This document shows positions 7,694 through 25,946 of a stretch of 31,422 nt of DNA, in pieces. Made by a program: the position numbers and the translations under genes. The first letter of the stretch is position 1. Every line of letters begins with the position of its first letter. Origin of the DNA: a virus; IMG/VR virus record IMGVR_UViG_3300034107_000274, positions 1-31,422 of that record; one strand, 5' to 3'. Below the pieces are notes generated by a model, which did not search any database, had not been told where the DNA came from, and worked only from the letters and a program-made list of their open reading frames with translations.

Positions 7694-9559
7694 TTATCCT
7701 AGTGAGGCGTTTCTAATAATGTTACGGTCTAAAGATTGGCCCGTTGTAACATCGCTAGGAACTACGTACGCTTTAACTGGTGTTTGTTCATTCGTTGCCA
7801 ATACGGATGCTAATTGATTAACTCCTGAATTTCCTACAACGTTAAATTGTGGTGCGCTTGGTGCGCCTCCGCCAGTTGGAACATTCGCACCGCCTACTCC
7901 CCCGCCTTTTGGAGTTTTAACCGATAAAATCTTTTTAACATTTGCCAATCCCGCTACTACCGCAACTCCCGCAGCGACACCTCCCAAAGCTGGTCCAACT
8001 ACTGGAATACCTGCAAGTGATTTATAAGCTGCTGTTGCACTTTGATAAGTGTCGATTGTGGTTGCCGCTATTGCTGCCGCCTTTCCCGCATCTGTTGCCT
8101 CTCCTAATAATGAAGATGCTTGTTTTAAAGTATTTGATCCAGCTGCCAACCATTGCTCACGCGATTGTGCTTTCTTTTTTTCAATTTCTTCAGTTGCTGC
8201 CGCGTTATCTTGCTTAATTTTTAAATCTTCCGCATCGCTTTTAACTCGAATATCATTTATCTCATTTGCTTGGGCAATTTCTAAATCTAAAGTGTCTTTT
8301 CCTTGTTGCTTTGCTAATTCAATTAAACGAAAATATTTATCATTTACTGCTCGCTCTTCAATTTGACTTCTAGTCATAAATGCCTCGGCATTTTTATCCT
8401 GCGCATCTCCAATCGCTTTTGTTATTTCTAACTCATTTGCAACGGTTGCATCACTTTGCGCTTTTAATGCTGCCTTTAATTCTTCAGCGTCTTTTTTTGC
8501 TTGCTCTTTGGCTTCTTTTTGTCTTTGCTTTCTATCAGCTTTTTTTTCTTCAGCACTCTTTTTTTCCGATTCTCTTTCTTTTGACGCTTGATCTGCATTA
8601 AAATTTGCAATTTCTAATCTTCCTTTTCTTTCTAAATCTAAAGCCTCGTTTCTTAATTCTTGTATTCTTTTGTTTTGCTCTTTTGTTAAATTATAACCCT
8701 CTTTTTGAGTAGATTCAATCGATTTTATTTCTTCATTATTAGCTTTTAATCTAGCGTTAATGCCATCTACTTTTATTTGTGTTAATTCCTTATCACTTGC
8801 TCCTCTTTGCTTTGCAGCAGCTAATTCAATTTGAGTATTATAGTCTATTCCTTTTGCGTTTGCATCGGCTAATTCTTTTCCGTATTCTAATTGCTTATTA
8901 AGTGCTTTTTGTTTTTCGGTCATTTCCTCTGTTGCATCTGAACTTTCATTCATTTTTGCAACTAGATAACCTAAACCAACAACAAGCGCACCAATACCAG
9001 TTGATACTATTGCGGTTTTTAAAGCATTAAATGATACTGCGGTTGTAGTTACTGCACTTGAAAATAATCTTTGCACTACCGTTGCCGCTGCGGTTGCTAA
9101 AGTATCAAGTTTTTTAAATGCAGTTGAATTTTGAACTACTGCGCTTAATTGCTCAAAGCTATCTATACTTTCTCCAATCGCTTGCAATCCTGAACTCAAA
9201 GCCATTGCGCTTTGAACTTTTAAAAGCGTTTGCTCTACTTCTTCAGATTGCGCACCAAACAAAGCCATTCCGCCCTGCACCGCAGCAAACCCACCTGCAA
9301 CTCCAGCAAGTGAACTGCTCAAAGCCTTAAATTTAGCATCGGGATTGAAGGCATCGGTTAACGCTTTTGCATCTCCAATCCTATCTTTTAATTCTCCCGC
9401 TTTTTTAGCCGCATTAATTGCTTCTTGTGAAGTAACTCCAAACTTTTCAGATAATGCAGCTACATCGGCTTGCGCTGCTCTTAATTGTGAGCGTAAAGAA
9501 CCAACCGCCTCATCTGCGTTGCCTTGTACTTTTATATCAATAACCTTTTCTATTGCCAT
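7694..9559 (-). CDS. Tail tape measure protein
   Basis: This 621-aa protein begins with MAIEKVIDIKVQGNADEAVG, the usual opening of tape measures, followed by long amphipathic helices. Hydrophobic segments lie near 85-105 (SLAGVAGGFAAVQGGMALFG), 185-203 (VSTGIGALVVGLGYLVAKM) and 520-545 (GIPVVGPALGGVAAGVAVVA). Between them is a long Glu/Lys/Ala coiled-coil tract (about 325-480). Using the usual rule of about 0.15 nm per residue it would set a tail near 90 nm, an inference. Its start overlaps the 44-aa gene by 10 nt. The tail chaperones are encoded far upstream here, beyond the tail-tip genes, an unusual arrangement. Confidence 0.85.
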   Translation of the reverse strand: MAIEKVIDIKVQGNADEAVGSLRSQLRAAQADVAALSEKFGVTSQEAINAAKKAGELKDRIGDAKALTDAFNPDAKFKALSSSLAGVAGGFAAVQGGMALFGAQSEEVEQTLLKVQSAMALSSGLQAIGESIDSFEQLSAVVQNSTAFKKLDTLATAAATVVQRLFSSAVTTTAVSFNALKTAIVSTGIGALVVGLGYLVAKMNESSDATEEMTEKQKALNKQLEYGKELADANAKGIDYNTQIELAAAKQRGASDKELTQIKVDGINARLKANNEEIKSIESTQKEGYNLTKEQNKRIQELRNEALDLERKGRLEIANFNADQASKERESEKKSAEEKKADRKQRQKEAKEQAKKDAEELKAALKAQSDATVANELEITKAIGDAQDKNAEAFMTRSQIEERAVNDKYFRLIELAKQQGKDTLDLEIAQANEINDIRVKSDAEDLKIKQDNAAATEEIEKKKAQSREQWLAAGSNTLKQASSLLGEATDAGKAAAIAATTIDTYQSATAAYKSLAGIPVVGPALGGVAAGVAVVAGLANVKKILSVKTPKGGGVGGANVPTGGGAPSAPQFNVVGNSGVNQLASVLATNEQTPVKAYVVPSDVTTGQSLDRNIIRNASLG

Positions 9560-20706: not shown

Positions 20707-22884
20707 TTAAAATGGAACTTCAAAATTTTGTTGTTGAAATTCTGCTTTTTTCCACAATAATATTCCATGTTTAACTACTCCGTAAAGTTTAATTGATTTG
20801 TAAATTAACTTATTTTTGGTAAAAATATCTTTTATATCATATTTTGACACATTTATTGCCGAGTTAATATTTAAAAAATTTAGTATATCTCCTTGATTCA
20901 TTACTATTTTTTCGCTCTTTTCTGTTGTTTCTTCTAGTGAAAAGTGATTAAAAAATATTTCTTCGATTGGATTTACATCTATATTTTCAATTGTCTGGCT
21001 ATTTAGATACTCTATATCATCAGATTTATAGATTTTCCAATCAAAACCATCTCGCCATAATTTAAATGCCTCACGCCAAAGTGAATCAGTATCAATACTA
21101 ATCATTTTATCATAATCAATAGATCCAACATTGCAAGGTAATAGTCTTCGATTTCCTGTTACGTCTTTTAGCACGTTGCCCTCATTTGTAGTTCCTGCAA
21201 GTGTAGCGCGTCTTTTTATTTTTGTGTAATATGCTGAATAAGGAAGTCTAATATCAATCCAGTTAGTGTCGGCCACGCGTTTAAAATCTTTAACATCTTT
21301 TGTGGCCAATCCTCCAAATTCATCATCAAAACAAATTAGGCCTTTTGCAAGATTGTACATTGAATCTTTATCATTTGCATCAATCTTTTTTTCAATTAGG
21401 TAATCTTTTAAATCCTCTGGAAGTAAATTTCTAAAAAAAGATGTTTTTCCGGTGCCTTGTTTTTGGCCACAAAGTACAAAAGTTAAAGGACTTACTTTTG
21501 TTTCATTTAATGGACTTATCCAATTGTGAACTGTACCTACAATCCATTTTTTAAACGCCCATCGATTATAATCGCTTTGTGGATGAACACAGTCGATATA
21601 AGCGTCTATTTCTCCAGTCTTATACTCTTTATTACTAAAGAATGAATTAAGCGGGTTAAAGTCTTTTGTTGCATCTGAATTAATAATATCGCGTACATCA
21701 GATTTGGAAACATTAAAATCTAAAACTTTGCAGGCTGTTTTATAAATTGAATTTAATCTATGGTCATCAATTACTACTTCATCAATTTTTATTTCATTTG
21801 TAATTATATTGCGTTCTGGAGCGTAATTTTCAATTATAAAATTTTCAAGTTTGGCCATATTTGATAAGTCCTCAAATACTTTAAACTCTGTTTTTGAATC
21901 AATCAAATCTTTAATTAACTTTTCATCAGGTGTAAACTTTTGTATTTTAAGAACTTTTGCTACGCTTTCAATTGTGGCTTCTCCTTGCGCTTTTTGTACG
22001 TTTACAGCTTTGATTGTGGCCTTTGTATTATCGCTGTATATTTCAATTCCAGCTTCTTTTACGTAATGATAAAAGGTTGCAATTGTTATATTTCCATCCT
22101 TACAAAAGTTTTTATAATGTTTTTCAATTGCTTGCGGATCATACTTTTGACCACTTTGACAAATAGCTTTAAAATAATCTAATCCTGCCAATCCAAATGT
22201 TGATCCAATTGCAAATCCAATATCACAATATCTTTTATAATCATCCTCGCAAATGTCTATATCTTTTACTTTATCAATTATTTGGCTAAAATCATCCTTA
22301 ACAAAAATAAAGTTTTCATTTTTTATCTCTTTTTTTACTTTGCTTTTTGCTATAAACTTTTTTGATTTGTCATTTTGAAATAGGTATGGATCAAAAGATA
22401 AAAATCTTAATCTATTTGGATTTTTGCAGGATTGATCAATTACTAAATTAAAATTATCCCAATAGTACTGACCTAAATCGTTAAACGATTCTAGGAATTT
22501 ATTAGCGTTAATTTTTATAAATACGCAAAGGCCATCGCCTCCAAAGGAACGGTGCGAAATAAATGTATATTGATCCGCATTAATTTTATTTACTAATGCT
22601 AAATCAACTTCATCATCAATATCCAAAACAATAAGGCCATTCATTTCCTTTATATTGCCTTTTGTTTTTTCTCCTTGATTCATTATAGCGGAACCAGTTA
22701 TGCAAGGCATCTTTGTTTTTAATGCTTTATACTTCGCCTCATCTTTTTTTACTGCTCGCGCTTTAAGAACCAGGTCTTGATATTTTCCTTTAACAATCAT
22801 TTCGCAATAATCATCAAATGATATATCTACTTTTTCTTTCGAACCTATTGAGTTATATAGGCTAAATTTGGTTTGTGTTTCCAT
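20707..22884 (-). CDS. Primase-type N-terminus fused to VapE/VirE-like ATPase (replication protein)
   Basis: This 725-aa protein has three parts. Residues about 60-170 resemble the BT4734-type primase-like domain: LIVLDIDDE (D88, D90), then ISHRSFGGDGLCVFIKI (109-125) and NPNRLRFLSFDP (155-166). Residues about 210-280 form a helical PriCT-2-like segment (DDYKRYCDIGFAIGS). Residues about 440-660 form a VirE/VapE-type ATPase with Walker A GQKQGTGKT (473-481), Walker B LICFDDEF (516-523) and a TTNEGNVLKDVTGNRRLLPC sensor segment. It probably primes and unwinds phage DNA at the neighbouring CTTACC-rich region. It overlaps the helicase end by 23 nt. Confidence 0.88.
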   Translation of the reverse strand: METQTKFSLYNSIGSKEKVDISFDDYCEMIVKGKYQDLVLKARAVKKDEAKYKALKTKMPCITGSAIMNQGEKTKGNIKEMNGLIVLDIDDEVDLALVNKINADQYTFISHRSFGGDGLCVFIKINANKFLESFNDLGQYYWDNFNLVIDQSCKNPNRLRFLSFDPYLFQNDKSKKFIAKSKVKKEIKNENFIFVKDDFSQIIDKVKDIDICEDDYKRYCDIGFAIGSTFGLAGLDYFKAICQSGQKYDPQAIEKHYKNFCKDGNITIATFYHYVKEAGIEIYSDNTKATIKAVNVQKAQGEATIESVAKVLKIQKFTPDEKLIKDLIDSKTEFKVFEDLSNMAKLENFIIENYAPERNIITNEIKIDEVVIDDHRLNSIYKTACKVLDFNVSKSDVRDIINSDATKDFNPLNSFFSNKEYKTGEIDAYIDCVHPQSDYNRWAFKKWIVGTVHNWISPLNETKVSPLTFVLCGQKQGTGKTSFFRNLLPEDLKDYLIEKKIDANDKDSMYNLAKGLICFDDEFGGLATKDVKDFKRVADTNWIDIRLPYSAYYTKIKRRATLAGTTNEGNVLKDVTGNRRLLPCNVGSIDYDKMISIDTDSLWREAFKLWRDGFDWKIYKSDDIEYLNSQTIENIDVNPIEEIFFNHFSLEETTEKSEKIVMNQGDILNFLNINSAINVSKYDIKDIFTKNKLIYKSIKLYGVVKHGILLWKKAEFQQQNFEVPF

Positions 22885-24418
22885 ATTTTTTATTATAAGA
22901 TTGTTTTAATATTTTGTTGCAGTAATTTTTGTAAACTACATTTTTACCTTTTGGCAAAATTGAATTTATAATTTGAAAATAAAAGGGCTTCAAAAGTACA
23001 TCAAATCTTTGTTGAAAATTTCCTTTTTTCTGATGAAATAAAAAATCATCGTGTTTAATATCGCTTTTATCTAAAAATTGAATCCACTTTTCTGATAAAA
23101 TTTTGAGTGCCTGATAATCTGTAACTCCTTTATTTATAAAAAAATTTATGTCAATTGTTGGAGTCTTTAATTTTGCTTTTTTCCCGTCAATTCTAAATTG
23201 TTGTTTTTCCCTTTCAAGTTGCATTTCTATCGGTTCGGGAATATGGCCACAATTTGGGCATTCTTTTTCTTTTTCTGGAAAAGTAAATCCGCACTCTTCA
23301 CATTCCTGCTGGGGCTCAATTATTAATTTTATTTTTCTATCTGAAAAAATTTTATTCCAATCTCGATCAAAAGAAAAATACTGATGTTCGTTTATATTAT
23401 TACCACCGTCAATAATAATAATTTTATCTTTATGTATTTTGTCCGTAATTCTGGCTCCTCTCCCACAAATCTGAATCCATAAGGCAAGGCTTTTAGTTGC
23501 ACGCGCTACCATTATACACTCAACATCGCAAACATCAAAACCTTTTGTAAAGCAACCTGTGTTTATAAGTATTGCATCTGGAGTGTCTTTAAACCATTGT
23601 ATAATTTCATCTCGCTCATTTGAGTTATTATTTACACTATCATAAGTCCTAACATTTTTTTCAGAAAACAATTCCGCAAAAATTGCATTTGTTTCCGTTG
23701 ACGAAGTAAATATCATTGTTTTTTTATTATCGCAATATATTTCGTACGTAGATAATAATGCTCTTTGATATTCCGGATCTTGGAAAACTTGCTTCATTGA
23801 TTCGGCAGTAAATTCTCCGCTACTATCTGTTTTAAGTCCTGAATAATCAAAATCAATTAACTCATTTTCATCTTTTACAAGATAGTTATTATCAATTAAC
23901 CACTTAATTGGTTTGCCACATATTATATCATCATATACATCGGCCATACATTCCACTGCAGTTGTATCTTCATCAATTTTATATCTCTTTAAACGCACTG
24001 GAGTAGCTGTAAATCCAATAATTTTACAGTTCTTTAAATAGGGAAATAACTTATTAAAAATCCAAACGTGGCATTCATCAACAACGCAGTAATTGAATGT
24101 AGGCATTTTGTCGCGTCTATTCCAAAGGCTTGAAACCATTGCGACAATAACTTTATTTTCTGGAAATATTTTATTTCCTGCTAGCACCATTCCAACATCA
24201 ATCCCTTGCTTTTTAAAAGTATCGTTTGTTTGATGAACAAGATCAATACTATCAACTAAAATTAAAGTTTTAGAATCTAGTTGCTTAATCATTTCTGTAA
24301 AAATTACAGTTTTACCACCTCCAGTAGATAGTTGAACGCAAAGTTTATCAACTGTTTTTAATTTTTCAAATATACCATCTAGAAGTTCTTGCTGGTATGG
24401 CCTTAATGTCTTTATCAT
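22862..24418 (-). CDS. DEAD/DEAH-box superfamily 2 helicase with zinc ribbon
   Basis: From ATG 24418 the protein is 518 aa: LRPYQQELLDGIF (Q motif), Walker A STGGGKT (31-37), DECH box (YCVVDECHVW), motif III GFTATP, motif V-like TGCFTKGFDV and motif VI QICGRGAR. After it, CEECGFTFPEKEKECPNCG is a four-Cys zinc ribbon, then a helical tail. The arrangement matches phage RecG/UvsW-like SF2 helicases that remodel forks or D-loops. An ATG nine codons further up (24445) lies inside the leader hairpins, so I prefer 24418, where homology begins (MIKTLRPYQ). It overlaps the primase start by 23 nt and is led by an attenuator-like leader. Confidence 0.9.
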   Translation of the reverse strand: MIKTLRPYQQELLDGIFEKLKTVDKLCVQLSTGGGKTVIFTEMIKQLDSKTLILVDSIDLVHQTNDTFKKQGIDVGMVLAGNKIFPENKVIVAMVSSLWNRRDKMPTFNYCVVDECHVWIFNKLFPYLKNCKIIGFTATPVRLKRYKIDEDTTAVECMADVYDDIICGKPIKWLIDNNYLVKDENELIDFDYSGLKTDSSGEFTAESMKQVFQDPEYQRALLSTYEIYCDNKKTMIFTSSTETNAIFAELFSEKNVRTYDSVNNNSNERDEIIQWFKDTPDAILINTGCFTKGFDVCDVECIMVARATKSLALWIQICGRGARITDKIHKDKIIIIDGGNNINEHQYFSFDRDWNKIFSDRKIKLIIEPQQECEECGFTFPEKEKECPNCGHIPEPIEMQLEREKQQFRIDGKKAKLKTPTIDINFFINKGVTDYQALKILSEKWIQFLDKSDIKHDDFLFHQKKGNFQQRFDVLLKPFYFQIINSILPKGKNVVYKNYCNKILKQSYNKKYGNTNQI

Positions 24419-24431
24419 AAAAATAAAAAAT

Positions 24432-24514
24432 GCCCACAATTTCAAGCGGGCAGGCTTTACTCTTGTGAGCTTTTTAAAATTTCTTAATTAGTATCGAACC
24501 TGCCCGAACAATAC
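24432..24514 (-). promoter_or_regulatory. Attenuator-like leader before the helicase gene
   Basis: Minus-strand RNA from the promoter at 24520-24527 would carry three competing pairings. CGGGCAGG (24506-24499) pairs perfectly with CCTGCCCG (24454-24447). GCTCACAA (24470-24463) pairs with TTGTGGGC (24439-24432), one U-G. GCCCGC (24451-24446) and GTGGGC (24437-24432) form a 6-bp terminator stem with an 8-nt loop, followed by ATTTTTTATTTTT and then the ATG. The first two pairings each block one arm of the terminator. What switches it is unknown. Confidence 0.6.
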
Positions 24515-24519
24515 AAATG

Positions 24520-24527
24520 CAAATATA
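24520..24527 (-). promoter_or_regulatory. Promoter TATATTTG for the helicase leader
   Basis: Exact match to the Bacteroidota TAnnTTTG box. A TTTTG lies 15 bases upstream, slightly closer than the usual spacing. Its first base is the end of the T-run of the terminator at 24537-24560, so one transcription unit ends exactly where the next starts. Confidence 0.6.
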
Positions 24528-24536
24528 AAAAAAAAT

Positions 24537-24560
24537 GGCACGCAAAATTAATCACGTGCC
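24537..24560. terminator. Bidirectional intrinsic terminator after the SSB-like gene
   Basis: GGCACG (24537-24542) and CGTGCC (24555-24560) form a 6-bp stem with a 12-nt loop. The minus strand continues with ATTTTTTTTT and the plus strand with TTTTTTTT. It lies 10 nt past the stop of the SSB-like gene. Confidence 0.8.
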
Positions 24561-24570
24561 TTTTTTTTAA

Positions 24571-24858
24571 TTAAAAAGGAAGTCCGTCAAAGTCTGGTAT
24601 GTCAACCACATCAATTTTATTTTCTATTGGAGTTGATTCCTTCAAGTTTCCAAAATAAAACTTCTCCTCTTTTGTTGCTCCTTTAAAGTTTGATTGAAAA
24701 GAAGCAACGTTTCCGTATTTATCAACTTCATCATTAACGTACATCCGCACGTTTAAATAAATTTTTCCGTTTTCGGATTTTGAGAAAGCCTTGTTTCCCG
24801 ATTTTGCCTGCTCAATTAATTTACTAAAATCGATTGAACCATAATAAGACTGCGCCAT
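24571..24858 (-). CDS. SSB-like single-stranded DNA-binding protein (small)
   Basis: This 95-aa protein has a short beta domain (KIYLNVRMYVNDEVDKYGNV then FQSNFKGATKEEKFYFGNLK) and an acidic end with aromatic tip, PDFDGLPF, like the partner-binding tail of bacterial SSB. Related small proteins occur next to ERF genes in Bacteroidota phages. It would bind single-stranded DNA during ERF-mediated annealing. Shorter than full SSB (about 150-180 aa). It follows the ERF gene by 10 nt and ends at a strong terminator. Confidence 0.65.
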   Translation of the reverse strand: MAQSYYGSIDFSKLIEQAKSGNKAFSKSENGKIYLNVRMYVNDEVDKYGNVASFQSNFKGATKEEKFYFGNLKESTPIENKIDVVDIPDFDGLPF

Positions 24859-24868
24859 AAATAAAAAA

Positions 24869-25363
24869 TTAAAGATTAATAAAAATTGTTTCTTGTTGTT
24901 GTGTTATGTTGTATTTGGTTTTTACTTGATCCAATGAAAAGCCGCCATCTTTTGCCTTTTTTAATATTTCGGTTGTAGCGTTTGGTTTTGGCTCTACTGC
25001 TTTCTGGCCATCATCATCATCTGCGCCCACGCAAACAAATGATTGAAGCGAATATCTGCGGGCATAACTTATTCCCGACCCTTGCGCTTGTGCATCGTTT
25101 ATTTTGTTGTAAACTATTTCGGTAAGTGATTCCATCATTTCTCCAGTTTCGTGCAGCAATATAGTCTTGACAAAGTTTTTGCCATCCACGTGAACAATCG
25201 GCTGGAGAACCGAGATTCCGTTTGCGTTTAGCGTTGGAATAACTGCCTCCCGGATCGAGTTTAAATCTGCGTATTTGCTTTTAAAGAATGGATTTACTGC
25301 GCCTTTTTTGGCGTTGCTCATTTCTGACTGTGCTTTTAGTAAAGCGGTTGCAATGTGTTTCAT
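24869..25363 (-). CDS. erf: ERF-family single-strand annealing protein
   Basis: The ERF core is plain in 164 aa: NPFFKSKYADLNSIREAVIP (24-43), LNANGISVLQPIV, then the hallmark GSGISYARRYSLQSFVCVGA followed by four Asp (95-118). It would anneal homologous single strands in phage recombination and end-joining/circularisation. The C-terminal 45 residues form a small helical tail (TEILKKAKDGGFSLDQVKTK). Neighbours SSB-like and helicase make a recombination-replication set. Confidence 0.93.
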   Translation of the reverse strand: MKHIATALLKAQSEMSNAKKGAVNPFFKSKYADLNSIREAVIPTLNANGISVLQPIVHVDGKNFVKTILLHETGEMMESLTEIVYNKINDAQAQGSGISYARRYSLQSFVCVGADDDDGQKAVEPKPNATTEILKKAKDGGFSLDQVKTKYNITQQQETIFINL

Positions 25364-25392: not shown

Positions 25393-25836
25393 TTAAAATG
25401 ATATTGCTAGTGATGATTTTCGTGGCGTTGTTGATACTTTAGGCACTTGAACTCCAGCCGCATCGTATATTTCATTATGCGATTTCAAAGCTAACTTTAG
25501 TAAGTCCTCACGTTCTTTTAGTTCTCGGTTTATATCACTCCACACTTCACAATCTTTAAAGTTGATAGTTTCGCCACCGCTTCGGAATGTGCCTTTTAGT
25601 CCGTACCCCTCGAAGTTCTCTTGTGGGAGAACTTTTATAAGTTCGGCGTTAATTACTTCCAACGCTTCTCCCATTCTTTTGGCTTGTGCTAGTAGTTCAA
25701 TTTTGTCTATCTCTCCAGCATCTAACACTTCTTTGATGAATGTTTTTGCAGATAGCTGAATTTCTAGCTTGTTTGGTAAAAAGTTTTGCGTGTCAATCTC
25801 TTGTTGGCGCATTAACTGGAATAAATCTTTACTCAT
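25393..25836 (-). CDS. 147-aa protein preceding ERF, unknown function
   Basis: MSKDLFQLMRQQEIDTQNFL... is mostly helical: a long helix at about 28-65 (LSAKTFIKEVLDAGEIDKIE LLAQAKRMG) and another at about 100-125, with a beta turn GYGLKGTFRSGGE between. This layout is common in proteins just upstream of phage recombinases; I cannot name the family. The C-terminus ends PRKSSLAISF. It is led by the second attenuator-like leader and ends 29 nt before ERF, so ERF and SSB-like genes would share the control. Confidence 0.72.
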   Translation of the reverse strand: MSKDLFQLMRQQEIDTQNFLPNKLEIQLSAKTFIKEVLDAGEIDKIELLAQAKRMGEALEVINAELIKVLPQENFEGYGLKGTFRSGGETINFKDCEVWSDINRELKEREDLLKLALKSHNEIYDAAGVQVPKVSTTPRKSSLAISF

Positions 25837-25853: not shown

Positions 25854-25928
25854 ATCCTAACTTAAATCCTATTGGTCAGAATAGGCAAAATTAGGATCGA
25901 TTATAATTTTTGTTTCAATCTCTGACCA
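25854..25928 (-). promoter_or_regulatory. Attenuator-like leader before the 147-aa/ERF/SSB operon
   Basis: The minus-strand leader carries TGGTCAGA (25928-25921) complementary to TCTGACCA (25880-25873), perfect over 8 bp with 40 nt between. Between and beyond lie ATCCTAA (25897-25891) pairing with TTAGGAT (25860-25854), which is followed by TTTTT, and a nested CCTATT/AATAGG hairpin (25885-25880, 25873-25868). The 8-bp long-range pairing uses the loop and flank of the nested hairpin, so the two cannot form together. Same design as at 24432-24514, different sequence. Confidence 0.55.
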
Positions 25929-25938
25929 GATTGTTCTG

Positions 25939-25946
25939 CAAATATA
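25939..25946 (-). promoter_or_regulatory. Promoter TATATTTG for the ERF operon leader
   Basis: Exact TAnnTTTG match followed by GCA, as in the helicase promoter (TATATTTGCA in both). No clear TTG -33 element is seen upstream. The predicted RNA start lies a few bases before the 5' arm of the long-range leader pairing. Confidence 0.55.

Follow-up and report, generated by a model that had tools for sequence, protein, structure and literature searches.

A kissing-loop leader RNA with a putative terminator ahead of a helicase gene and other genes in Flavobacterium phages

Several described RNAs resemble in part the leader reported here. HK022 put is a phage leader RNA that acts in cis with hairpins near the transcript start, as do the kissing-loop leaders, from which it differs in that it is not known to have a U-tract after the fold or kissing loops. 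The lysine riboswitch and similar kissing-loop aptamers show, as here, loop-loop kissing and a loop E-like internal loop; unlike in the lysine riboswitch, no ligand-binding core is common to the subtypes of the present leaders, and Rfam gave no match. Intrinsic-terminator attenuators combine a promoter, a structured leader and a hairpin with U-tract directly before the gene. The same holds here, with a hairpin and adjoining U-tract upstream of the start codon in 88/94 units, but a competing antiterminator pairing showed no general excess, and in our leaders the upstream hairpin kisses the terminator loop. In pT181-type antisense attenuators and their engineered orthogonal variants (PMC3753616, PMC4878617) hairpin-loop kissing is likewise tied to a terminator and families differ in loop sequence, but there the partner is a separate antisense RNA, whereas here both loops lie on one RNA. 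STAXI and c4 RNAs are also structured RNAs near phage or DNA-handling genes, but their architecture is another one, c4 is an antisense RNA (PMC2864571) and Rfam matched neither to our leaders.

In a strict search none of the 4227 Rfam models matched, and the best permissive hit reached 22.5 bits against a threshold of 60, which agrees with a preliminary description of the locus that knew of no such phage element. ARAGORN found no tRNA-like element in the leader, which contains GGUUCGA. The strict pattern had no match in 84,980 species genomes and the model of the subtype studied here had no genuine match in 199 Flavobacterium genomes, on which grounds an origin from host or prophage was rejected; the one match to the model (L235, 38.9 bits) was a plain terminator. 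Nothing relevant was found in plasmids and no published description in the open-licence literature. In kind the element is a terminator-bearing leader RNA. As a class we found no precedent for it, and it looks like an undescribed one.

The leader ahead of the helicase gene

The stretch of DNA that was analysed (the window) is a virus record of 31,422 bases, whose helicase has ~75% DNA identity to the helicases of the Flavobacterium phages mumin and snusmum. An intrinsic terminator closes the preceding operon; its U-tract extends into the leader promoter, and the helicase transcript thus probably begins at that promoter (Table 1). TAnnTTTG is the Bacteroidetes -7 consensus (PMC6847099, PMC7366714), and across the whole family an element of this kind lies a short way 5′ of the RNA.

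The preliminary description, made from the letters of the window, had placed here an attenuator-like leader with its own promoter and a terminator-like hairpin and U-tract directly ahead of the gene, and a structured 5′ leader of this kind is what we find. Its span of 24432-24527 holds for the core, but the full unit of copy 1 runs from the promoter (24527) to the ATG (24418). All the segments that it named are present and conserved, namely the promoter, a 5′ segment CGGGCAGG (24506-24499) and, at the claimed spacing of 44 nt, CCTGCCCG (24454-24447). The pairing of the latter two covaries in 31 relatives and constitutes the loop-loop contact between P1 and P3. A second segment, GCTCACAA, pairs as proposed with TTGTGGGC, the right arm of the hairpin (24452-24431) that precedes TTTTTTATTT; this pairing also covaries and is P2, which encloses P3.

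Table 1. Features of the two leader loci in the window
Feature	Positions	Strand	Details
Intrinsic terminator of preceding operon	24537..24560	-	GGCACGTGATTAATTTTGCGTGCC + T9; 9 bp, 5 G-C pairs
Bacteroidetes -7 promoter element, copy 1	24520..24527	-	TATATTTG (consensus TAnnTTTG); P1 starts 5 nt beyond
Whole folded leader RNA, copy 1	24432..24514	-	Alignment A1, 31 distinct relatives
P1 hairpin	24491..24514	-	GTATTG (24514-24509) / CGATAC (24496-24491), 6 bp
Kissing strand in P1 loop	24505-24500	-	GGGCAG
A/U-rich linker	24471..24490	-	Contains motif AANA[ACT]ATT, here AAGAAATT
P2 5′ strand	24463..24470	-	GCTCACAA; double compensatory changes in phage 11b, L145, L146
P2/P3 internal loop and P3 hairpin	24440..24462	-	GAGTA / GAAA; AAGC[CTGCCC]GCTT
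P3 loop, kisses P1 loop	24453-24448	-	CTGCCC
P2 3′ strand	24432..24439	-	TTGTGGGC; 8 bp with GCTCACAA, encloses P3
U-tract	24421..24430	-	TTTTTTATTT; right after P2, stops just short of ATG
Helicase ATG	24418-24416	-	
SF2 (ResIII/DEAD-like) DNA helicase gene behind copy 1	22862..24418	-	518 aa; Pfam PF04851 2.7e-23, phrog_16 6.4e-71
-7 promoter element, copy 2	25939..25946	-	TATATTTG
Leader RNA, copy 2	25854..25933	-	Sequence unrelated to copy 1; descriptor scan
Copy 2 P1		-	CAATCT[GGTCAG]AGATTG
Copy 2 P2		-	ATCCTAATTT/AAGTTAGGAT
Copy 2 P3		-	CCTAT[TCTGACCA]ATAGG; kiss GGTCAG x CTGACC
Gene behind copy 2	25393..25836	-	147 aa, without family match
Erf-like ssDNA-annealing gene	24869-25363		After the 147-aa gene
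95-aa gene	24571-24858		After the Erf-like gene

The checks proposed in the preliminary description included a fold of the minus strand and a search for covarying homologues. The single-sequence fold of the window leader was only moderately better than shuffles (z -1.98; 8/200 shuffles equally good), and one sequence's fold alone would be weak evidence; it is the relatives that settle the structure. Pattern scans and BLAST recovered the element in phage 11b and many viral contigs, and we aligned 31 distinct phage sequences of the window's subtype (alignment A1). In these, P1 (6 bp), P2 (8 bp), P3 (4 bp) and the kissing helix between the P1 and P3 loops (6 bp) all covary. Over the four helices together 99.9% of cells are paired; shuffles reach 91.8 ± 0.6%, and sliding the partners lowers the figure to 29-44%. 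The covariation score of 0.251 compares with 0.093 ± 0.008 for shuffled and at most 0.059 for slid alignments. The pseudoknotted structure contains 9 pairs with changes on both sides, and RNAalifold recovers P1, P2 and P3 without help. Every pair of P1 varies (6/6), four of them on both sides, with 100% of cells paired; P2 changes from ACAA/UUGU to AUCA/UGAU in phage 11b; and the middle pair of P3 occurs as G-C, U-A, A-U and C-G. The kissing strands are RGGCAG in the P1 loop and CUGCCY in the P3 loop, one pair shifting from G-C to A-U in four sequences, while L086 has GUGCAG x CUGCAC. Judged from these comparisons, the leader structure (P1, P2, P3 and kissing) is all but certain. No sequence of this subtype departs from AGUA/GAAA in the P2/P3 internal loop, which resembles, and may be, a loop E (bulged-G) motif.

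One architecture in many sequences

In L149, which has a distant homologue of the helicase, the corresponding position holds GGUCAGAG x CUCUGACC along with a P1, P2, P3 and U-tract of its own, and other loci do likewise. We therefore scanned with a descriptor of shape: P1 of at least 4 bp, a kiss of at least 6 Watson-Crick bp, and a P2 of at least 6 bp that encloses a P3 of 3 bp or more and is followed by a U-tract. In the window it matched two places, copy 1 and copy 2, where 0.15 were expected. The 235 loci examined (2.44 Mb) were gathered starting from the window element and helicase, and the census is therefore biased; they yielded 124 distinct matches, of which 93 are distinct units with a promoter-like element 5′ of the RNA and an ORF behind it. 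Shuffled DNA gave 39 matches in 4.03 Mb before the promoter and ORF filters. There were 42 different kissing strings in the 235 loci, 37 after collapsing nested ones, although such counts are circular since the descriptor requires pairing, which does not apply to the A1 covariation, the shuffle controls or the 64-region test below. Among 92 contigs drawn from chance short matches, 91 had no filtered unit, the sole exception being L086, a helicase-bearing phage contig.

A test independent of the RNA used regions upstream of helicase homologues, nearly all collected by protein similarity. The architecture was present in 40 of 64 distinct regions, against a mean of 0.1 and a maximum of 1 in their shuffles. 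Several of the remaining 24 have, by eye, a version with larger loops (L166, L217, L203) or a gene inserted after the leader. The cultured carriers are FCL-2 and the FCOV phages, mumin, snusmum and 11b; the complete phages have two units (mumin), three (snusmum) or one (11b and FCL-2). No unit was found in P12024L, phi46:1, phi17:1, 6H (first 46 kb) or phi38:2 (first 50 kb). For the metagenomic contigs we infer hosts from cultured relatives.

Copy 2 folds better than any of 200 shuffles (z -3.75). In its subtype (alignment A3, 10 distinct sequences) P1, P2 and P3 covary, with 14 pairs changed on both sides (0/500 shuffles), and P1 and P3 are altered at nearly every pair while the kissing pairs are kept (6/6 invariant). 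Within a subtype, in A1 as in A3, the kissing helix varies less than the stems do, which complementarity alone would not account for. Part of the GGUCAG subtype (L158:4011-4088, L168:3523-3600, L169:761-834 and L172:1758-1839) has CUGAC twice, in the P2 5′ region and in the P3 loop, and the P1 loop could pair with either copy; the doubling is not conserved in the window copy.

Across subtypes the kissing sequences follow a rule: 25/37 strings begin with GU or end with AC, where 4.5 are expected. Some strings occur in both orientations, namely GUGGAAG/CUUCCAC, GUGGACG/CGUCCAC and GUGAGAAG/CUUCUCAC; GUGGAAG, for example, lies in P1 of L158, L170 and L173 and CUUCCAC in P1 of L012. The rule and the two orientations suggest that something recognises the kissing helix itself or that its geometry is under constraint. 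No two leaders within one phage shared a code (0/31 pairs, P 0.016), near-identical copies having been merged before counting. Near-identical duplicates within one contig were observed at L036:4307-4385 and 8085-8163, and also in L197, outside the counted set; given these, a rule that copies within one phage differ is weak. The P2/P3 internal loops include AGUA/GAAA (loop E-like), UGAU/UGAU, UGAA/GGAU and GGA/GAA (tandem G-A-like), and look like interchangeable non-canonical modules.

The -7 element ends 4-5 nt ahead of P1 in 51/93 units, and the ATG lies 7-24 nt beyond P2 in most (full range 7-52 nt). When the search did not require a U-tract, 88 units of 94 had at least 4 T in 6, and T occupied positions 2-9 after P2 in 57-84 of the 94. 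The tract is anchored to P2 and not to the start codon. Between -11 and -7 the leader genes are rich in T (63-78% T), whereas A prevails at ordinary starts of these phages (54-67% A at -14 to -10), and in F. johnsoniae A at -3, -6, -12 and -13 promotes initiation (PMC6847099); because of this the U-tract is not a translation feature. The P2/P3 hairpins average -16.3 kcal/mol, compared with -12.7 for the ordinary terminator just upstream. Linkers are 54% A, and 33/67 distinct linkers contain AANA[ACT]ATT (6.8 ± 2.4 in shuffles), a motif that spans unrelated subtypes and might contact the fold or be bound by a protein. A longer linker was expected for a longer coaxial rod, but the correlation was -0.50; this arises in part because extra P2 pairs take linker bases and was not used as evidence. 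On both strands of the window TANNTTTG occurs 74 times, against 53.9 ± 7.7 expected, and no shuffle of 100 reached as high.

The preliminary description had the leader controlling the helicase gene. It does precede that gene, but this is too narrow, since the same unit stands before at least 28 gene families, counted as protein clusters. The SF2 helicase lies behind 32 distinct units with 19 kissing strings; other followers are HNH and GIY-YIG endonucleases, DUF6291/DUF7833, a DUF3987 primase-polymerase, an SNF2-like helicase, Phg_2220_C, an exonuclease and unknowns. One gene is found with different subtypes and one subtype before different genes, so the unit is modular. GIY-YIG and other small genes stand behind the leader, some between leader and helicase (L215:3568-3653, L193, L198:5292-5385, L212:3500-3583), an arrangement that would fit homing endonucleases which had settled after the leader and now make use of it.

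Possible modes of action

The reading that we consider most likely, with confidence and doubt about evenly balanced, is that of a cis-acting leader in which P2/P3 and the U-tract are an intrinsic terminator set by the kissing fold. Its parts were observed directly, from the promoter element through P1, P2, P3 and their kissing contact to the U-tract and the nearby ATG, and so was its reuse, in different sequence, before different genes; termination at the U-tract, an effect of kissing on it and the action of a signal or phage factor are what we infer from them. The leader RNA would comprise ~85-95 nt, from at or next to the transcription start to just before the start codon. P1 would form first, and the P3 loop, once transcribed, would kiss the P1 loop. 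P2 would then close round P3, abutting the U-tract in the form of an intrinsic terminator. Such a terminator would be conditional (leaky), with part of the polymerases stopping at the U-tract and the rest entering the gene, and the kissing contact would set hairpin formation in the exit channel and hence the amount of operon made. The gene would depend on read-through because the short gap between RNA and ATG leaves no room for a second promoter in most units and, in the window, also because the preceding operon terminates at the leader promoter.

Two points count against this reading. Many P2 helices are rich in A and U (mean GC 0.44), and some copies may therefore terminate poorly. Moreover, no conserved or general antiterminator pairing was found across units, with a slight excess only for the upstream sequence with the P2 5′ strand (p 0.004), and a conserved fold that always forms would not readily account for a conditional gate. 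Nor was a leader peptide or ligand site found in these leaders. A leader-peptide attenuator was considered and rejected, as the window leader has no ATG and phage 11b does not preserve the codons on either side of the kissing strand.

A bolder reading, which we offer tentatively, is that of a class inheriting only its three-dimensional architecture. Each copy would have its own self-complementary kissing sequence under the GU.../...AC rule, a set that works in either orientation; phages would swap the kissing-gated terminators as modular cassettes for expression control, with a single factor that recognises shape, or RNA polymerase itself, perhaps reading them.

The leader may instead be a 5′-end clamp or translation module, in which the kissing fold shields the mRNA 5′ end from ribonucleases and keeps a U-rich stretch single-stranded for the ribosome, with no termination. 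A mechanical role would account for an architecture kept without kept sequence, and P1 does adjoin the presumed transcription start. Nevertheless we think this rather unlikely: the U-tract occupies the zone where Flavobacterium starts are A-rich (PMC6847099) and is fixed relative to P2 over the whole range of ATG distances, and a stable hairpin as near to the ATG as 7-20 nt should hamper initiation.

A polymerase-modifying RNA like HK022 put, whereby the leader binds RNA polymerase so that it passes later terminators of the operon, would fit the phage origin, the position at the very start of early/replication operons and the compact conserved fold. It is improbable in view of a terminator-like U-tract right after the fold, which put is not known to have, and of subtypes that have in common no polymerase-contact sequence beyond the linker motif and the GU/AC kissing bias. 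We give still less credence to an independent trans-acting small RNA gene that by chance lies ahead of other genes. The promoter and terminator do delimit a transcript of ~90 nt, and within a subtype the kissing sequences vary less than the stems. Against this, most units are followed at 7-24 nt by the start codon of an ORF on the same strand, which leaves no place for a further promoter, and each copy-1 kissing 8-mer has a single occurrence in the window, where no trans partner was found.

The preliminary description had read the locus as a switch in which termination is brought about in one way and prevented in two, the 5′ segment and the second segment competing with a short terminator hairpin, TGCCCGC/GTGGGCA. 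The segments are there and the short hairpin has 7 pairs in the window, but the two supposedly preventing pairings coexist in one fold and both covary. The short hairpin itself has no double changes among the relatives, its end pairs are broken in 9 and 15 of the 31 sequences, and an analogous pairing is no stronger than in shuffles over 68 units of the wider family. This three-state switch is thus very unlikely, and the terminator-like hairpin that covariation supports is, on the alignments, P2/P3 itself. Least credible of all is a metabolite riboswitch with a ligand pocket in the kissing fold controlling the terminator, for although aptamers with kissing loops and loop E exist (the lysine riboswitch) and the window's subtype never departs from AGUA/GAAA, neither the internal loop nor any helix stays the same across subtypes, an unlikeness that argues against a common small-molecule pocket, and the followers, which are replication genes and homing endonucleases, do not form a single pathway.

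Very little is known of gene timing in Bacteroidetes phages, and a class of leaders that stands before many genes and keeps its shape while almost all of its sequence changes would evade ordinary sequence searches. Since cultured phages carry these leaders, it becomes testable whether loop-loop contact alone tunes an intrinsic terminator. If real as a class, the leaders would represent a natural supply of compact, mutually distinct expression gates, several of them in some phages.
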